Source of the DNA: Nitratireductor sp.
Lineage (GTDB): Bacteria; Pseudomonadota; Alphaproteobacteria; Rhizobiales; Rhizobiaceae
Reading direction: 5' to 3'
Length of the DNA: 64,000 bases
NCBI GenBank assembly: GCA_017854535.1
Contig: JAFMHL010000004.1
Span: 1-64,000, forward strand
The notes beneath the pieces are model-generated. The model saw nothing but the letters and a program-made list of their open reading frames with translations, was not told where the DNA came from and searched no databases. Shown here piece after piece: positions 8,601 to 38,745 of this stretch (position 1 is the stretch's first letter; each line of letters begins with the position of its first letter). The position numbers were made by a program, and so were the translations under genes.

Positions 8601-9368
8601 ATGCGTAACATTCTGGTAATTCTCTCAGCGGCAACTGCCTTGTCGCTTTCTGCTGCCCCGTCTTTTTCCGGGTCAAGATATTCCACACCACCAGCAACTG
8701 TTTTGTCCGGTGACCTAGCATCACCCTGGATATTGCAATTGCGAAACAACCAGCAATACCAAAAATTGATGCAGCGCAATGCGGCTATCCGCCAGCAACT
8801 TGCTACACAACCAAAAAGACAAAAAGCAGTGAGATCGGTCGCTCTTATCCGCCCGGCTGCACGGACGCAAGCCAGTGCGCCAGCACCTGTATCAGCGCCA
8901 AAAGAAGGTCTTGATGCGAAGTTCTTGCCGCAATTGGTAGCCTATTCCGGCAATCAACAGCCAGGAACCATTGTGATCGATACCAACAGACGTTTCCTGT
9001 TTCTGGTTGAAGCAGATGGCATGGCACGGCGCTATGGCGTTGGTGTTGGCAAAGAGGGATTTGAATGGTCAGGTACCGAGAAAATTACCCGCCGCGCTGA
9101 ATGGCCCGATTGGCGTCCGCCAGAAGAAATGCGCCAGCGTGAACGGGCCAAGGGTCGCGAATTACCTGTCGTTATGGCTGGAGGCCCCGAAAATCCATTA
9201 GGGGCCCGCGCTTTGTATCTTGGAAGTACATTATACAGAATACACGGCACAAACAGGCCTGACACTATTGGCAAAGCGATGTCTTCTGGCTGTATCCGTA
9301 TGCGTAATGAAGACGTTACCGATCTTTATCAACGGGTTAAAGTGGGTACTAAGGTGGTTGTACTTTAA
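8601..9368 (+). CDS. L,D-transpeptidase (YkuD), copy 1
   Basis: Exported enzyme that makes 3-3 crosslinks in peptidoglycan or attaches proteins to it. It is 255 residues with a signal peptide (about 1-25, ending SAAPSFSG), a Pro/Ala/Gln-rich linker (50-110), and a YkuD domain (about 118-255). The catalytic motif is HGTNRPDTIGKAMSSGCIRM with the nucleophile at about Cys231. The same domain is repeated in the next gene. Close relatives in Brucella and Agrobacterium link outer-membrane proteins to the wall, so that role is possible here by inference. Paired hairpins follow at 9409-9466. Confidence 0.9.
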   Translation: MRNILVILSAATALSLSAAPSFSGSRYSTPPATVLSGDLASPWILQLRNNQQYQKLMQRNAAIRQQLATQPKRQKAVRSVALIRPAARTQASAPAPVSAPKEGLDAKFLPQLVAYSGNQQPGTIVIDTNRRFLFLVEADGMARRYGVGVGKEGFEWSGTEKITRRAEWPDWRPPEEMRQRERAKGRELPVVMAGGPENPLGARALYLGSTLYRIHGTNRPDTIGKAMSSGCIRMRNEDVTDLYQRVKVGTKVVVL

Positions 9369-9408
9369 ATTTTCAACTGAATTGCCTGTATAATAGGCAA
9401 TTCACATA

Positions 9409-9466
9409 GAATTAGATATCGATCCCGTGAAGTATTTTATCTAATTCGCGGGATTGTTGCTTTTTT
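9409..9466 (+). terminator. Interleaved hairpins with T-run after ldt copy 1
   Basis: Arm gaattagata (9409-9418) pairs with tatctaattc (9438-9447), and arm atcccg (9422-9427) pairs with cgggat (9449-9454). The order is left 1, left 2, right 1, right 2, so the two helices are either alternatives or a pseudoknot. A run of six T follows at 9461-9466. A separate 9-bp hairpin lies just before (9379-9403). Simplest reading: the terminator of the first transpeptidase gene. Confidence 0.5.
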
Positions 9467-22605: not shown

Positions 22606-22974
22606 TTACCGGCAGCTGACAAAATCTCTATAACGCACGTTTTCTTCGCGTTCGATGAAGCTAACCTTCACTGAATTGCCTTTTCTGAGCATTACCTTGC
22701 ATGTGAAACGCACACTATCAGGTTCAATGAAGAGCAGAAACTGGTCAGGAATTCCCATCAAACCCGAAACTGTTAATTGAGCCCCGTCTGTTGAAAACTC
22801 GCGCAATTGGCAATGAAACCCCTGCGTTTGGCCATCGACTACGAGCCAGGCAAGGCGATTCGCGCGACTTAATTCGCTCCGCTTCGAATCATTTTTAAGG
22901 CGGCGTGCCACCAATGATTGGGCGACAGGTCTTTTTTCTAAAAGATTATTTGTTGTTATAGCTGAATTGAGCAA
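22606..22974 (-). CDS. PilZ domain protein
   Basis: A 122-residue cytoplasmic protein with a PilZ-like fold. The N-terminal basic segment (ARRLKNDSKRSELSRANR, about 24-41) corresponds to the RxxxR stretch, followed by the REFSTDGAQLTV segment (about 58-69) matching the D/NxSxxG motif, and IPDQFLLFI. PilZ domains bind cyclic di-GMP, but here the RxxxR is imperfect and the aspartate is replaced (EFS instead of D-x-S), so binding is uncertain. TTG start with agga upstream. A CtrA box precedes it at 23020-23038. Confidence 0.6.
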   Translation of the reverse strand: MLNSAITTNNLLEKRPVAQSLVARRLKNDSKRSELSRANRLAWLVVDGQTQGFHCQLREFSTDGAQLTVSGLMGIPDQFLLFIEPDSVRFTCKVMLRKGNSVKVSFIEREENVRYRDFVSCR

Positions 22975-23104: not shown

Positions 23105-24082
23105 ATGAATCCATTGTTTGACATGCTGGCTAATATGCAGACAGGCGCAAAGCAAAACGATATTACTGCGCAAATGGCAAAACAATTTGGCCTGCAGCAG
23201 CAACAAGCCCAGAGCGCCATAGAAGCGCTAATGCCAGCTTTTACTCAAGGTTTGAAACGCAACGCTGCCGCATCTCCTGAGGGACTGGCTTCGTTTATGC
23301 AAGCATTGGCATCAGGCAACCATGCCCAATATATGCAAGACCCAATGAAAGCGTTCAGCCAAAATGGCTTGAGCGAAGGCAATGCTATTTTGGGTCATTT
23401 GTTTGGTAATAAAGAAATCAGCCGCGCAGTTGCAAAACAAGCCGAGGCCACAAGCGGTGTATCTGAGGCGGTCTTAAAACAAATGCTCCCTGTCCTTGCA
23501 CCAATGGTAATGGGAGGCCTGTTTAAACAAATGACAGGTCAAGCCAGCGCCCCTGCGGCTGCACCTCAAATGCAACATGCATTTGGCGGTAGCGGCGGTA
23601 TATTGGGCCAAATTTTACAGGAAATGATGAAAGGCGGACTTGGCCAGTCGACTGGGCAAACGCGTCAGCAACCCCAAGCTAAAAATCCACTTGAGCAAAT
23701 TCTGGAACAAATGACTGGACGCAGCTCCGGAGGAACGCAATCCTCTGACAACAATTCTGGTGGCAGTTTAGGTGATATATTCAATGAAATGTTGAAAAAC
23801 GGACCTATGGGGCAAATGAACCCAATGAATCCATCAGGAGACAACCAACCTGTTGATCCCTCGCCCTATGACGCGCCGAAGCAAGCAGATGAAACACTAA
23901 ATGACATCTATGGCCGTCGTGAAAGCGCGCCAGAACCAGAGGCGGAGCCAAAAGGTTATCCAAAGGGCACAGGTCTCGAGGATTTGTTTGGTGATTTATT
24001 CAAGCCGACAAAAACCGGCGCTCCACAATATGATAAAGCTATCGAATCTATCTTTGATCAATTCATGAAGCCACGGAAATAG
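23105..24082 (+). CDS. DUF937 domain protein
   Basis: This 325-residue protein has an N-terminal DUF937 domain (about residues 1-150; LFDMLANMQ, then KQMLPVLAPMVMGGLFKQM) and a long low-complexity tail (150-325) rich in Gln, Gly, Ser, Pro and Met with short hydrophobic helices repeated, such as ILGQILQEMMKGG and LGDIFNEMLKNG. Related domains (YidB family) have no settled function. The repeated amphipathic GxxILxxML segments suggest oligomerisation. It is divergent from the PilZ gene across a region with a CtrA box. Confidence 0.75.
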   Translation: MNPLFDMLANMQTGAKQNDITAQMAKQFGLQQQQAQSAIEALMPAFTQGLKRNAAASPEGLASFMQALASGNHAQYMQDPMKAFSQNGLSEGNAILGHLFGNKEISRAVAKQAEATSGVSEAVLKQMLPVLAPMVMGGLFKQMTGQASAPAAAPQMQHAFGGSGGILGQILQEMMKGGLGQSTGQTRQQPQAKNPLEQILEQMTGRSSGGTQSSDNNSGGSLGDIFNEMLKNGPMGQMNPMNPSGDNQPVDPSPYDAPKQADETLNDIYGRRESAPEPEAEPKGYPKGTGLEDLFGDLFKPTKTGAPQYDKAIESIFDQFMKPRK

Positions 24083-24153
24083 AAATTCATCTCTTCTATT
24101 CTGTGAATTTTGCTATACTCCGGACGCGCTTCCTAGATCGATTAAAAACAAAC

Positions 24154-24182
24154 AAAGGCGTTTACTATCCCTAAACGCCTTT
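24154..24182. terminator. Hairpin between DUF937 and ureohydrolase
   Basis: An 11-bp perfect stem aaaggcgttta (24154-24164) pairs with taaacgccttt (24172-24182), loop ctatccc. The + side has only the ttt inside the stem, while the minus side continues gtttgttttt. It may end the DUF937 transcript or be the first hairpin of the ureohydrolase leader. Confidence 0.5.
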
Positions 24183-24188
24183 AAACTA

Positions 24189-24244
24189 TTGTTCCCCAAT
24201 GAATATGGCTGAGATCAGCCTTTCTTGCGCTATTTGGGGAACAA
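24189..24244 (+). promoter_or_regulatory. SD-sequestering leader stem of ureohydrolase gene
   Basis: The 11-bp perfect arms ttgttccccaa (24189-24199) and ttggggaacaa (24234-24244) enclose 34 nt that hold a second perfect hairpin ggctga-ga-tcagcc (24207-24220). The right arm contains gggga, the only good ribosome binding site for the ATG at 24247. Folded, the leader would hide it. No known riboswitch class is recognised. Confidence 0.5.
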
Positions 24245-24246
24245 GC

Positions 24247-25209
24247 ATGGACAATTCTTATTTTCATCCGGTTTCGGGCATGGACCTTCCGCGTTTTGCC
24301 GGTGTTGCTAGTTTCATGCGCTTACCGCAAATCCAGTTGGATGACCCAAAACTTGCCGATGTTGAGATCGGTTTGATTGGTGCGCCTTGGGATGGGGGGA
24401 CGACCAACCGCCCCGGTCCGCGCCACGGACCGCGCCAAATCCGTGATTTCTCAACCATGATCCGCGCCGAAAACGGACATACAAGAATTCGCCCTTTTGA
24501 ATTGGCCAATTGCGCTGACTTAGGCGATGTTGGGCCCAATCCTGCCAGCGTTGATGACAGTCTTGTGCGCTTTGAAGCGTTTTATTCGAAAGTCAAAGCT
24601 GCGAAAATCATGCCAATGACCGTTGGGGGCGATCATTTATGTTCCTTGCCAATTCTTCGCGCTTTGGCGAAAGACAAGCCATTGGGCATGATCCATTTCG
24701 ACAGCCATACGGATTTGTTTCACTCCTATTTTGGCGGTTTCAAATATACCCATGGCACGCCATTCCGCCGCGCTGTGGAAGAAGGTTTGCTTAACCCTAA
24801 ACGGGTTTGCATGATTGGCATCAGAGGTTCTGCTTATGATTGGGAAGACCGCGATTTTGCCGAAAGCGTCGGTATTCGCGTTATCCCTATCGAAGAATTT
24901 TTTGCCCGCGGCATTGATGATGTTATGGGCGAGGCGCGGGAAATAGCTGGCGATGATAAAACCTATGTTTCCTACGATATCGATTTTGTTGATCCAACAT
25001 TTGCGCCGGGAACTGGAACGCCTGAAATAGGCGGACCAAACTCGTTTCAAGCCGTCGAAGTTGTTCGTCATCTAAAAGGACTCAACTTTGCTGGGGCTGA
25101 TCTTGTTGAGGTCTCCCCGCCATTTGACACATCCGGCGGCACAGCATTTCTCGCAGCAACACTCGTGTTTGAGTTGTTATGCGTCATGGCACCAAGCTTC
25201 AAGAAATAA
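24247..25209 (+). CDS. speB: Agmatinase-family ureohydrolase
   Basis: Mn-dependent ureohydrolase of the arginase/agmatinase family, 320 residues from the ATG at 24247 (ribosome site gggga). Metal-binding motifs are GGDHL (about 127-131), FDSHTDL (about 149-155) and YDIDFVDP (about 241-248), at usual spacing. The default product is agmatinase, releasing urea from agmatine to give putrescine. Guanidinobutyrase and guanidinase belong to the same family and cannot be separated by eye, and no polyamine genes flank it. An upstream in-frame ATG at 24199 lies in the leader stem and lacks a ribosome site. The stem at 24189-24244 suggests translational control. Confidence 0.85.
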   Translation: MDNSYFHPVSGMDLPRFAGVASFMRLPQIQLDDPKLADVEIGLIGAPWDGGTTNRPGPRHGPRQIRDFSTMIRAENGHTRIRPFELANCADLGDVGPNPASVDDSLVRFEAFYSKVKAAKIMPMTVGGDHLCSLPILRALAKDKPLGMIHFDSHTDLFHSYFGGFKYTHGTPFRRAVEEGLLNPKRVCMIGIRGSAYDWEDRDFAESVGIRVIPIEEFFARGIDDVMGEAREIAGDDKTYVSYDIDFVDPTFAPGTGTPEIGGPNSFQAVEVVRHLKGLNFAGADLVEVSPPFDTSGGTAFLAATLVFELLCVMAPSFKK

Positions 25210-25245: not shown

Positions 25246-26016
25246 TTGACCCATTCGGCACTAAGCATTCGCAATTTGAGCAAGACCTATACAAGGCCTG
25301 CTGTTAGCGATTTGAATCTTGAAATCAAAGCTGGCGAGTTTTACGCGCTTTTGGGACCTAATGGTGCTGGTAAAACCACCACGCTGAAAATGGTTGCAGG
25401 GCTTTTGCAGGCAGACAAAGGCGATATTCATATCTTTGGACATAATGCTAAGACGGATCCATTGGGCGCTAAACAGATTACCGCTTGGGTGCCAGATGAA
25501 CCGATGATTTACGATCGTTTGACACCACTGGAATATCTGGAATTTGTTGCTGGTTTGTGGGAGGTGCCGGGCGACCTTGCGGCCAAACGCGCAGAAGAAA
25601 TTCTCGATACATTAGGCCTGGAACCACACGCCCATGAACGCTGCGAAGGATTCTCCAAAGGTATGCGCCAAAAGGTGGCTTTGGCTGGTGCGCTGATTCA
25701 CGATCCAAAATTGATTATCCTTGATGAGCCACTTACAGGTCTTGATGCAGGATCAGCGCGTATGGTCAAAGACGTGTTGCTCAAGCGTGTGGATGATGGC
25801 TGTACGGTCATTCTCACCACGCATATTTTGGAAGTTGCCGAGCGCATGGCCCAACGTATTGGCGTTATTGCCGAAGGTCGTTTGGTTTGCGAAGGCACAT
25901 TGGCTGAATTGCGTGCAGCAAACACAACCGGCAAGTCCGGGGAACAAAGTCTTGAAGAAATTTTCTTAGATGTGGTTGACCGCAGTAAAGAGCAAAATCA
26001 GGAAGTAGCAGCATGA
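25246..26016 (+). CDS. ABC transporter ATP-binding protein
   Basis: Nucleotide-binding subunit, 256 residues. Walker A is LGPNGAGKTTT (about 35-45), the ABC signature is FSKGMRQKVALA (about 137-148), and Walker B is KLIILDEP (about 155-162), followed by a switch histidine in LTTHILE. It resembles exporters of the CcmA/ABC-2 class. TTG start with ctggaga upstream. Its stop overlaps the start of the permease gene by 4 bp, so the two form one transporter. The substrate is unknown. Confidence 0.9.
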   Translation: MTHSALSIRNLSKTYTRPAVSDLNLEIKAGEFYALLGPNGAGKTTTLKMVAGLLQADKGDIHIFGHNAKTDPLGAKQITAWVPDEPMIYDRLTPLEYLEFVAGLWEVPGDLAAKRAEEILDTLGLEPHAHERCEGFSKGMRQKVALAGALIHDPKLIILDEPLTGLDAGSARMVKDVLLKRVDDGCTVILTTHILEVAERMAQRIGVIAEGRLVCEGTLAELRAANTTGKSGEQSLEEIFLDVVDRSKEQNQEVAA

Positions 26017-27569
26017 GCCGCACCGCATCCTATCGCTGGTTTGCAGAACATGAGTTTCGCCTGGCGTGGCGTGATCTTTATGGAATGATGTCTGGCAATC
26101 GTCCAGGACGCGGCAAGCGTATCTTTATTGTCTCGCTGATCATTAGCCTTGGCCTGCATCTTCTTGCATGGGCAGCTCTTAAATCAACCATTGCCCATGG
26201 CATCACTAGCGATGTGCCGACCCTTTTGATGGTTAGCGGTTTTCTGCTGCTTCCAGTGTCGCTTATGGCATCGCAAGCGATGGAAAGTATAACGCGAGCT
26301 TTCTATACGCGCTCTGACCTTGAATTGATCCTTGCGTCCCCTGCCCCTGCGACAAAGCTTTTTGCTGTGCGGATGGTAGCAATTGCTTTGACAACAGCAA
26401 CCCTTACGCTTCTGGTAACAGCCCCTGCCATCAATGTATTGGCGCTAACAGATAATGCAGGATGGTGGTTTGCCTATCCTGTTGTGTTTGCATTTGGCAT
26501 GATGGCAACAAGTTTCGCGATCCTGTTGACCATGGGTTTGTTCACCATCATTGGCCCGTCAAAAACACGATTGGCTGCACAAATTGTTGCCGCTGTTGTT
26601 GGCGCTGGATTTGTGATTGGCATTCAACTAGTCGCCATTATTTCCATCGGCTCAATTTCCCGTTTGCAGCTATTGCAGTCTGATTTTTTGTTGGCCCGCG
26701 CGCCAGAAATCTCAAGTTCCTGGTGGCTTCCGGCCATGGGCGCAATGGGTGATGGTGTTTCCGCCATGACACTATTTGTTATCGGCGTATTGGTCTTTGC
26801 TGCCACATTGGTAATGACGGCAGGAAGCTATGGCAAAGTGGTCCTGAAGGCAGCATCAATTGATCTTGCTTCCGGCCCGAAGAAACAAAGCAAAGTTGCG
26901 TTCAGAAAAATGAGCGCTGCAGCCATGTTGCGCCGCAAAGAGTGGAAACTTTTGCGCCGTGACAAATGGTTGATGTCGCAAACGCTGATGCAATTGCTAT
27001 ATCTCATCCCGCCAGCCTTCATGCTTTGGCATAGTTTTGGTCAAGGCAGCAGCATGACCATGGTGATTGTACCCGTCATTGTCATGGCGGCAGGGCAATT
27101 GGCAGGCGGTCTATCTTGGCTCGCGATCTCCGGCGAAGATGCGCCGGAACTGGTGACAACTGCACCCGTCTCCGCTGGTCAAGTTGTTCGGGCAAAAGTC
27201 GAAGCGATCCTAATCAGCGTTTCGTTTGTTGCAGCGCCGCTCATTCTCGCGATTGCTTTATTGTCCGTTCATAGCGCGCTGATCGCCGTCGTTTGTGTTG
27301 CCGCTTCAGTTATTTCTGCAACGGCCATTCAATTGTGGTTCAAGGCACAGGCTCGGCGCAGCAATTTCCGTCGTCGTCAGACATCATCTCGAGTTGCAAC
27401 CATGGCAGAAGCTTTCTCGTCCATCCTTTGGGCAGGCACTGCGGCCATCTGGATTGTCGGATCTTGGGCAGCGGTAATCGTCGCCCTTCTGGTTTTAGCG
27501 ATCCTGGCTTTTACCTGGTGGATGAGCCCTGCGCGGCAAAGCCAAATGCCTATGACCGATTCAATTTAA
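26013..27569 (+). CDS. ABC transporter permease
   Basis: Membrane subunit paired with the preceding ATPase, 518 residues with about 10-12 hydrophobic segments, more than the six of a simple ABC-2 permease, so it looks like a fused double-length subunit. A basic cytoplasmic stretch (about 285-325, including MLRRKEWKLLRRDKW) separates the two halves. The ATG overlaps the ATPase stop. Its last 20 bp overlap the 3' end of the MerF-like gene on the other strand. I cannot name a substrate. Confidence 0.85.
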   Translation: MSRTASYRWFAEHEFRLAWRDLYGMMSGNRPGRGKRIFIVSLIISLGLHLLAWAALKSTIAHGITSDVPTLLMVSGFLLLPVSLMASQAMESITRAFYTRSDLELILASPAPATKLFAVRMVAIALTTATLTLLVTAPAINVLALTDNAGWWFAYPVVFAFGMMATSFAILLTMGLFTIIGPSKTRLAAQIVAAVVGAGFVIGIQLVAIISIGSISRLQLLQSDFLLARAPEISSSWWLPAMGAMGDGVSAMTLFVIGVLVFAATLVMTAGSYGKVVLKAASIDLASGPKKQSKVAFRKMSAAAMLRRKEWKLLRRDKWLMSQTLMQLLYLIPPAFMLWHSFGQGSSMTMVIVPVIVMAAGQLAGGLSWLAISGEDAPELVTTAPVSAGQVVRAKVEAILISVSFVAAPLILAIALLSVHSALIAVVCVAASVISATAIQLWFKAQARRSNFRRRQTSSRVATMAEAFSSILWAGTAAIWIVGSWAAVIVALLVLAILAFTWWMSPARQSQMPMTDSI

Positions 27570-32903: not shown

Positions 32904-32980
32904 TGGTACGGTTGGAAGGAATTGAACCATCGACCTCTTGCGCCACAAGCAAGCGCTCTAACCAACTGAGCTACAACCGC
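32904..32980 (-). tRNA. tRNA-His (anticodon GUG)
   Basis: A 77-nt cloverleaf with encoded CCA (32904-32906). Acceptor gcggttg/caaccgt, D-stem gctc/gagc, anticodon stem cttgc/gcaag with loop ttgtggc (anticodon GTG), T-loop ttcaatt. The T-stem gatgg/ccttc has one U-U mismatch. The discriminator is A73, the terminal pair is G1-U72, and the base before G1 is T, so no G-1 is encoded. Canonical tRNA-His needs G-1:C73; many alphaproteobacteria lack it. Confidence 0.93.
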
Positions 32981-36938: not shown

Positions 36939-38639
36939 ATGACAACGGTAAAAAACCCAAGTGAAATAAAACCGTCCAGCCGCGCCCTGCGACCAACTGG
37001 CCATTTGGGTAAGCCCTGGACTATTCTGGTATTTTTAACCGTCGCTTTCACACTTTTGCCATTGCTGGCACTGACATGGCAGGCCACGGGAAGTTCCGAC
37101 GGTGTTTGGGCGCATTTGATCGCCAATGTCCTCCCGCAATCTTTGGCAGTAACCTTCACATTACTGATTGGTGTGGGACTTGGAACGTTCATTGTGGGAT
37201 CAGGTACAGCGTGGCTGGTCAGCAGATATCAGTTTCCTCTTAGAAATATATTGCAATGGGCACTCATATTGCCACTCGCCGTGCCAACCTATATTTCGGC
37301 TTATACTTGGACTGAGTTTGCTGGCTATACTGGTCCGTTGCAGGAATGGACACGGATTTTAGGCGGCTTTGAAACGTCGCGCGATTATTGGTTTCCAGAT
37401 ATCAGGTCCACGACCGGCGCAGTTTTGTTGATATCATTGGTACTATTTCCCTATGTTTATTTGCCTTCGCGGCTGTCCTTCAGCGTTCAAAGTTCAAATC
37501 TGTTCGATGTGGCGAGACTGCTCGGCGCAGGACCGATAAGGCTGTTCCTTCGGGTGGCATTGCCAGCAGCACGTCCGGCCATTGCTATTGGCGTTATCCT
37601 CGCGCTGATGGAAACCATGAATGATATTGGTGCGGTGGAGCATTTGGGAGTGCGAACATTGACCTTCTCTGTGTTCGATACCTGGCTTAATCGCTCCAGC
37701 CTGGCAGGCGCTGCGCAGTTGTCGCTGCTGTTGATGGTTTTGGTATTTGGATTGATGGCAATGGAACGCCATATGCGAAGCAAACAAAGCTATCACGGGC
37801 GCAGCCAAAGCAATGCCATGCAGGTTAGAATTTCACTAACTGGCGCCAAAGCTTTTACGGCATGTATTACCTGCCTCCTGCCAGTGCTGCTGGGCTTTGG
37901 GGTACCTTTATTCCAGTTGCTGCATTTTACATTTGCTTCGCCTGCACAGCTTGGTGATACAGCGCTTTATTCTGCGGCCATCAATAGCATCAATGTTGCC
38001 GTTGCCAGTGCTTTGATCTGCATATTGGCGGCATTTGTGATAGTTTATGCAGCGCGGCGATCATCCTCACCGCTTTACATCCATGCCAGCCAGATCTCTA
38101 CCTTGGGATATGCTGTGCCGGGAACGATTTTGGGCCTTGGCATCCTTGTTGCCATGACAAGTTTCGACAATTGGCTGTCATCATGGATGCAATCAATTTT
38201 CGATATTCGCACTGGTCTGCTTATTTCAGGATCGCTGGCGATTGTTATTTTTGCTTGTTCTGTCCGATTTCTGGCAATCGCAATCGGCAATATTGAAGCG
38301 GGTTATGCGAAAATCACACCAAATATATCAGAAGCAGCAAGAACTTTGGGGCATAGTCGCGCTAGCGCCCTTTGGTTTGTGGAACTACCCATGATCAGCA
38401 AGGCTGCAGGAATTGCAGGGGTTTTGGTATTTGTTGAGAGCATGAAAGAACTGTCTGCAACGCTATTACTGCGTCCGTTTAATTTCGACACACTTTCTAC
38501 CTATGTCTATACCCGTGCCAGCCGTGCCGTGTTTGAAGAAGCTTCCGTTGCGGCACTGATGATTGTGCTTATCGGTCTGGTTCCAGTGTATGTGTTAACA
38601 ACGATGATCATTTCGGAACAAAACGCAAAGTCCCGTTAG
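36939..38639 (+). CDS. Iron(III)-type ABC transporter permease
   Basis: Double-length permease of 566 residues with two BPD_transp_1 domains (about 75-280 and 345-550) and about 12 helices, the FbpB/SfuB/ThiP architecture. Each half has its EAA loop, seen as ARLLGAGPIRLFLRVALPAARPAI in part and AARTLGHSRASALWFVELPM in part. These systems import ferric iron through a periplasmic binding protein. Neither that protein nor the ATPase is adjacent, so they must be elsewhere. It starts 80 bp after the kinase gene. Confidence 0.87.
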   Translation: MTTVKNPSEIKPSSRALRPTGHLGKPWTILVFLTVAFTLLPLLALTWQATGSSDGVWAHLIANVLPQSLAVTFTLLIGVGLGTFIVGSGTAWLVSRYQFPLRNILQWALILPLAVPTYISAYTWTEFAGYTGPLQEWTRILGGFETSRDYWFPDIRSTTGAVLLISLVLFPYVYLPSRLSFSVQSSNLFDVARLLGAGPIRLFLRVALPAARPAIAIGVILALMETMNDIGAVEHLGVRTLTFSVFDTWLNRSSLAGAAQLSLLLMVLVFGLMAMERHMRSKQSYHGRSQSNAMQVRISLTGAKAFTACITCLLPVLLGFGVPLFQLLHFTFASPAQLGDTALYSAAINSINVAVASALICILAAFVIVYAARRSSSPLYIHASQISTLGYAVPGTILGLGILVAMTSFDNWLSSWMQSIFDIRTGLLISGSLAIVIFACSVRFLAIAIGNIEAGYAKITPNISEAARTLGHSRASALWFVELPMISKAAGIAGVLVFVESMKELSATLLLRPFNFDTLSTYVYTRASRAVFEEASVAALMIVLIGLVPVYVLTTMIISEQNAKSR

Positions 38640-38645
38640 GTTGGC

Positions 38646-38745
38646 AAAAAAAATGGCGGATCCAAAGGATCCGCCAGTTACTAATCTTAAAAGGGGCATT
38701 TAACGTCGTATGAGCAGAATATCTGCTAAATTTGCTTGTGTTATC
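38646..38745 (-). ncRNA. Candidate small RNA with intrinsic terminator
   Basis: On the minus strand a 10-bp perfect stem (38676-38667 with 38663-38654, loop ttt) is followed by eight T (38653-38646), a textbook terminator, yet the next gene upstream on that strand is at 41498. Just before it lies a short hairpin agcaga-tat-tctgct (38727-38713) and a single-stranded pyrimidine stretch near aaatgcccctttt. A CtrA box at 38766-38781 sits where a promoter is expected. The 5' end near 38745 is inferred. Alternatively a 16-codon frame at 38750-38700 (MAITQANLADILLIRR) is translated. Confidence 0.45.

Follow-up and report, generated by a model that had tools for sequence, protein, structure and literature searches.

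When transcription from outside reads into the transposase gene of IS10, the resulting RNA folds over the ribosome site. Phage T4 provides two further precedents. The long early RNA of gene e, which encodes lysozyme, is silenced, and the RNA from late promoters, which lacks the 5′ strand of the stem, is translated (PMC3014915). Similarly, long I-TevI transcripts from upstream promoters have their ribosome site sequestered by a stem in the leader, and the transcript from the gene's own promoter lacks the 5′ strand (PMC2988022). A different kind of leader RNA precedes genes of guanidino-compound or polyamine metabolism: guanidine-I riboswitches stand before permease-guanidinase clusters (PMC11410670), and variant SAM-I riboswitches, those for spermidine, are associated with speB (PMC10853860).

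We analyzed the leader of a ureohydrolase gene in a 64,000-nucleotide stretch of the genome of Nitratireductor sp. (contig JAFMHL010000004.1, positions 1 to 64,000), hereafter the window. The layout predicted in the window is the same as that of gene e and I-TevI, with a ribosome-site stem in the long RNA only. However, the arrangement is described as demonstrated in T4, whereas here it is a prediction that concerns a chromosomal metabolic gene and a candidate promoter. The IS10 case differs in that it belongs to a mobile element, whereas no transposase is involved at the window locus.

Inverted repeats in the ureohydrolase leader

The ureohydrolase gene is located between a DUF937 gene and a gene for an ABC transporter ATPase, and the leader, together with the flanking genes, comprises the following features.

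23105..24082, plus strand: upstream DUF937 gene (Pfam PF06078, E 5.5e-29)
24154..24182, strand not assigned: hairpin 1, a perfect palindrome with 11-bp arms and a 7-nt spacer, overlapping the promoter-like block
24189..24199, plus strand: 5′ arm of the long stem, TTGTTCCCCAA, an 11-bp perfect repeat
24199..24246, plus strand: in-frame upstream extension of 16 codons with AUGs at 24199 and 24205 (open frame 24199-25209)
24207..24220, plus strand: inner hairpin GGCTG-AGAT-CAGCC, with a 5-bp stem and a 4-nt loop (−6.8 kcal/mol)
24234..24244, plus strand: 3′ arm of the long stem, TTGGGGAACAA, which holds the ribosome site
24236..24240, plus strand: Shine-Dalgarno-like gggga within the 3′ arm, 6 nt before the ATG at 24247
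24247..25209, plus strand: ureohydrolase gene, 320 aa, guanidinopropionase-like, arginase family (PF00491, E 7.7e-85)
25246..26016, plus strand: downstream ABC transporter ATPase gene (PF00005), which directly follows the promoter-like block in genomes G004 and G002
26013..27569, plus strand: gene for a putative ATPase partner protein, a conserved neighbor without a Pfam or NCBIfam match

The best solved relative of the ureohydrolase is 3nip, a 3-guanidinopropionase (E 1.8e-115, aligned over residues 1-317), and its scores against the NCBIfam agmatinase models fall under the cut-offs. The enzyme is more likely to be a guanidino-acid hydrolase than an agmatinase. Among the seven genomes of the genus that were compared, the DUF937 neighbor is conserved in G001, G002, G004, G005, and G006. 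Two of these, G004 (contig 108: L080, L077) and G002 (contig 30: L082), have no ureohydrolase gene between DUF937 and the ABC ATPase, and both keep the flanking genes along with the promoter-like block described below. On the minus strand, at 22606-22974, the window also encodes a protein without a Pfam or NCBIfam match, which adjoins DUF937 in five other genomes of the genus at 38-62% identity.

The inverted repeats of the leader are real. The 11-bp hairpin that had been proposed at 24154-24182 is present as a perfect inverted repeat, with arms assigned by the repeat scan to 24154-24164 (AAAGGCGTTTA) and 24172-24182 (TAAACGCCTTT), and as RNA it would fold at −12.0 kcal/mol. The 11-bp perfect stem spanning 24189-24244, along with the second perfect hairpin enclosed in it, was likewise located correctly in the original prediction. 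The predicted fold of the leader reaches −37.2 kcal/mol, compared to −21.0 ± 3.1 for shuffled sequences (z −5.2; 0 of 200 shuffles as low), and a repeat arm as long as the window's at the start codon was obtained in 0 of 300 shuffles. The window is, nevertheless, generally rich in long perfect repeats, given that 7 of them, with arms of at least 11 and loops of 3-40 nt, were detected vs 0-3 per shuffle (20 shuffles). This general excess favors an explanation that we consider possible, if somewhat doubtful, namely, that hairpin 1 is a promoter or operator dyad that has become more symmetric by chance, whereas the long repeat is an accident of the lineage that has no effect, its 5′ arm being rarely transcribed.

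Hairpin 1 was considered as the terminator of DUF937 and is ruled out on the plus strand by the absence of a T run, the plus-strand tail, AAACTATTGT, having 4 T of 10. A T-rich tail, GTTTGTTTTT, with 8 T of 10, is found on the minus strand only. The long repeat was also evaluated as an operator and rejected, with TTGTTCCCCAA occurring at 2 other sites in the genome vs 1 for the reversed control pattern, that is, near chance. Furthermore, a single DNA-binding protein that would recognize the long-repeat arms is unlikely because these arms are wholly different between sister species.

The contrast between the two tails, combined with the two-hairpin fold of the minus strand (z −4.0), is what one would expect of a minus-strand small RNA antisense to the ureohydrolase leader, in which a stem-loop (24244-24189) would be followed by a terminator hairpin (24183-24153) and the T-rich tail. 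We nevertheless deem such an RNA very unlikely: neither of two scans detected a minus-strand promoter, the DNA search of 394 genomes of the family yielded no full copy, and palindromes fold on both strands regardless.

Comparable repeats are present elsewhere in the window. A perfect 10-bp repeat at 38654-38676, after a plus-strand frame that ends at 38639, has a T-rich tail on the minus strand only (TTTTTTTTGC), the same odd orientation as in hairpin 1. Two adjacent perfect repeats at 9378-9447, TGAATTGCCT/AGGCAATTCA and GAATTAGATA/TATCTAATTC, follow a frame that ends at 9368, and the first of these resembles, probably by chance, the repeat that precedes the ureohydrolase gene in G001 and G006.

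Predicted occlusion of the ribosome site

The gggga motif lies inside the right arm of the long stem, as originally proposed, but the spacer that separates it from the ATG at 24247 is 6 nt rather than 3 nt; the arm itself ends with 2 nt remaining before this ATG. When both arms are present in the RNA, the predicted fold pairs the ribosome site with a probability of 1.00, and opening of the start region would cost 12.6-15.4 kcal/mol. As in the long RNA of T4 gene e, the ribosome site is predicted to reside in a stable stem. The earlier suggestion that the stem holds translation off agrees with this predicted near-complete burial in the both-arm RNA, whereas the ligand switch that was part of the same suggestion is unsupported.

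With a 60-nt leader, the start-region opening cost is 15.2 kcal/mol in the window, 16.1 in G001, and 14.5 in G006, and does not exceed 11.8 in any of the 18 remaining orthologues of the 21; these groups separate less cleanly when the leader is extended to 160 nt (14.4 for L049 and 12.6 for the window). The genes of the window have a mean opening cost of 6.4 ± 3.0 kcal/mol (n = 48), and the value for the ureohydrolase at 24247 (15.2) is greater than all 48 first-ATG values, the largest of which, 12.8, comes from the ureohydrolase frame itself, measured at the AUG at 24199. When first-ATG values are compared with those of neighboring genes, the ureohydrolase ranks first among 19 genes in G001 and among 7 in G006. 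In G005, it is not the highest, with 7.9 vs a maximum of 15.0 among 18 genes. Once any in-frame start within the first 30 codons is admitted, a cost of at least 14 is reached by 6 of the 48 genes of the window, the ureohydrolase included, so that a high opening cost alone is not unique to this gene.

The very strong occlusion predicted for RNA that starts upstream is also compatible with a main mRNA that carries the whole leader, the stem being opened by a protein, a small RNA, heat, or a ligand, with no known aptamer involved, and a −10-like hexamer, TATACT at 24114-24119, would yield RNA of this kind. We regard this possibility as unlikely. No competing structure that would free the ribosome site was noticed in the leader, in a search that was not exhaustive; the one alternative pairing partner identified by eye, 24168-24175, would likewise bury the site; and the arms and loop of the window are absent from the leaders of the same genus.

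A riboswitch, more specifically, might be suspected from the stable structure that precedes a gene for an enzyme acting on guanidino compounds. The guanidine-I and spermidine riboswitches are similar to the window leader in preceding genes of guanidino or polyamine metabolism, but these have defined aptamers, whereas the window leader matches no Rfam model. Search of the whole window with the Rfam 15 covariance models at the gathering score retrieved only a tRNA at 32907-32980, and with E values up to 10, the only matches in the region 23950-24400 were to two microRNA models, with scores far short of the cut-offs; the spermidine riboswitch variant had no model of its own in this comparison. 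These results are in line with the initial view that the leader fits no recognized riboswitch class. A DNA search of the genome to which the window belongs (E up to 10) returned, besides the leader, 8 fragments 14-24 bases in length; a dispersed repeat or MITE is ruled out, given that this search gave no further copies. Across the 394 genomes of the family (E up to 0.01), only two short matches were obtained besides the window, one of 29 bases in coding sequence and the other of 26 bases over the inner hairpin, located on a contig other than that of the ureohydrolase gene of the respective genome. No shared aptamer-like sequence was seen by eye in 17 further leaders from the family or was retrieved by the DNA search, and the only leader block conserved in the genus is retained where the ureohydrolase is lacking. 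With no Rfam class, only short DNA matches, and repeats that are absent from three leaders of the same genus, neither a ligand-opened switch nor a riboswitch of a known or conserved kind is supported. Control by a ligand riboswitch is improbable, and the idea that a new riboswitch class binds a metabolite and controls the ureohydrolase seems to us to have hardly any chance of being correct. Our literature search retrieved no report of such a stem preceding a ureohydrolase gene, although one may exist.

A promoter-like block under hairpin 1

The leaders of G001, G005, and G006 have in common a 38-nt stretch, the first base of which is 66 nt before the start codon. When the core of this block was searched for in the seven genomes of the genus with up to 3 mismatches, G001, G004, G005, and G006 each yielded one copy, whereas G000 (the genome of the window), G002, and G003 yielded none. 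The ABC ATPase was identified in 6 of the 7 genomes, and in all six the block is present at the locus, in clear form in four genomes and in diverged form in the window and in G002. In the window, the features assigned to this block are as follows.

24159..24196, plus strand: counterpart of the 38-nt block, the best ungapped match, inside and just after hairpin 1
24187..24192, plus strand: predicted −10 element, TATTGT, chosen after the alignment had been seen
24199, plus strand: predicted transcription start, A, 7 nt after the predicted −10

The diverged copy in G002, at the same locus, was equaled by 0 of 1000 shuffles (first 17 columns). For the window, an earlier alignment of three relatives gave a non-significant match, with 78 of 400 shuffles as good; a profile of four relatives gave 18-104 of 1000, and one of five relatives, namely, the original three plus the copies from G004 and G002, gave 3-5 of 1000. 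Gapped scoring prefers a placement of the block that ends at 24224 (2/300 and 17/300 under two gap settings), and the placement at 24159-24196 is likely rather than certain. Sixteen of the 38 block columns are identical across the six genomes, including T-A-nnn-T at the −10 place (6 of 6), and the base that corresponds to A24199 is a purine in all six.

The block looks like a promoter, with an unclear and atypical −35, TTTAC, which precedes the chosen −10 by about 20 nt and was picked with the columns already in view. The leader gave no hit in a standard promoter scan, and when a rhizobial consensus was used instead, starts near 24125, 24145, 24213, and 24242 ranked above the candidate at 24199. 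Because G004 and G002 carry DUF937, the block, and the ABC genes without the ureohydrolase, the block is not tied to the latter. The accidental origin of the long repeat also gains from the block, which can be explained without any role for RNA.

The predicted start site is the first base of the AUG at 24199, and no sequence resembling a ribosome site was seen by eye before the upstream extension (24199-24246). A leaderless mRNA that yields an N-terminally extended product is therefore possible on the basis of the predicted start. Leaderless mRNAs are known in the alphaproteobacterium Sinorhizobium meliloti, with 171 start sites reported (PMC3616915).

The 5′ arm of the long stem (24189-24199) overlies both the predicted −10 and the predicted start site. 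In the window as well as in G001 and G006, 30 nt separate its start from the first base of the block, and the corresponding distance for the weak repeat of G005 is 32 nt. Given that the predicted start lies after or at the end of the arm, the 5′ arm would be missing from the gene's own mRNA and would be present only in RNA that reads through from DUF937. Shifting the 5′ end of the RNA to the predicted start reduces the opening cost, in kcal/mol, from 12.6 to 5.9 for the window, from 16.1 to 2.2 for G001, and from 14.5 to 3.8 for G006; in G005, it hardly changes (6.6 to 6.3). Read-through from DUF937 is plausible because no plus-strand terminator-like site was found in the window between this gene and the block, and the DUF937 gene is the likely source of the read-through RNA.

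Our preferred explanation is that the ureohydrolase and ABC genes have a promoter of their own, the block at 24159-24196. The RNA made from it would start near 24199, after the 5′ arm, and would leave the ribosome site as accessible as in the average gene. Conversely, RNA running in from DUF937 would carry both arms, form the long stem, and thus have the ribosome site buried. The stem would block translation of the read-through RNA, so that the promoter alone would decide when the enzyme is produced. The repeats, the predicted folds, the block common to the relatives, and its occurrence in two of them that lack the ureohydrolase are results of the analysis; within this scheme, we infer the promoter function of the block, the position of the start site, the existence of the read-through RNA, and the biological role. 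That the stem silences read-through RNA, as in the case of T4 lysozyme, is for us the best explanation, albeit one that we hold tentatively and at less than even confidence. An accidental repeat that happens to overlie an ordinary promoter is nearly as likely.

Ribosome-site stems in related leaders

A close ureohydrolase orthologue is encoded in 4 of the 7 genomes of the genus, that of the window included, and in 21 of the 394 genomes of the family (E up to 1e-150). Both window repeats are absent from the three orthologous leaders of the same genus, which follow the same DUF937 neighbor, so that the arms of the presumed switch are not conserved in these relatives, and the accident explanation gains accordingly. 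The covariation that had been put forward as a further check could be addressed in part: a consensus fold of the three relatives comprises 11 pairs, of which 2 are changed on both sides and 4 are broken in one sequence, changes that do not count as covariation because the sequences are too few.

We then compared the leaders for a perfect repeat with a 3′ arm extending into the 20 nt that precede the start, using 300 shuffles each. The comparison took in 30 leaders, 29 of them distinct (L044 and L050 are one record), and left out the lower-scoring ureohydrolase matches L012-L030, the own-genome paralogues L031-L033, and L046. Shuffles as good numbered 0 of 300 for the window, 2 for G001, 0 for G006, and 23 for G005; among the rest, two distant leaders were the best, at 14 and 17, and the best of 17 other leaders from the family stood at 52. 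G001 and G006 share the stem GAATTGCC/GGCAATTC, one base longer in G006, with a 3′ arm that ends at position −4; this stem is unrelated to the arms of the window. At random positions (1500 draws), arms of at least 8 so placed occur in 1.5% of the cases for the window, 1.9% for G001, and 2.5% for G006. Among the actual genes of these stretches, such an arm precedes a single gene out of 19 in G001 and out of 7 in G006, in both cases the ureohydrolase, and 3 of 48 in the window. The fold of the whole leader, equaled or surpassed by 10 of 200 shuffles for G001 and 2 for G006, stands out only modestly in these two genomes, and with 61 for G005 it is ordinary there.

The gene and the block are both present in G005, and the ribosome-site stem is absent: the repeat ends at −16, and the opening cost is 6.6-7.9 kcal/mol. 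Where the ureohydrolase is missing, no long stem precedes the ABC ATPase either, considering that its start is associated with a 4-bp repeat and a cost of 3.9-4.8 kcal/mol in G002, and with a 7-bp repeat and a cost of 9.2-9.6 kcal/mol in G004. G001 and G006 are close and were counted as one lineage, so that the stem recurs in two lineages of three, a recurrence that was noticed after the fact.

G005, with its gene and no stem, is compatible with an accident of the lineage. Conversely, a ribosome-site stem at the same distance from the block in two lineages, built from unrelated arms, is unlikely to arise by chance, an argument that is itself post hoc. Should the silencing of read-through RNA that we favor be correct, a broader scenario could be envisaged, which we consider rather doubtful. 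Lineages within a single genus would have independently rebuilt, from unrelated sequences, a promoter-anchored stem that insulates a guanidino-acid hydrolase from read-through, with selection acting on the architecture rather than on the sequence, perhaps complemented by the leaderless AUG.

The locus calls for caution, in that a stable ribosome-site stem recognized in DNA is to be taken for a riboswitch only once the mRNA has been shown to include the 5′ arm. If the silencing of read-through RNA proposed here is borne out, sequence-based RNA searches would miss such stems because their arms turn over. Moreover, translational insulation from read-through RNA, as known from phages and transposons, would then also guard a chromosomal metabolic gene.
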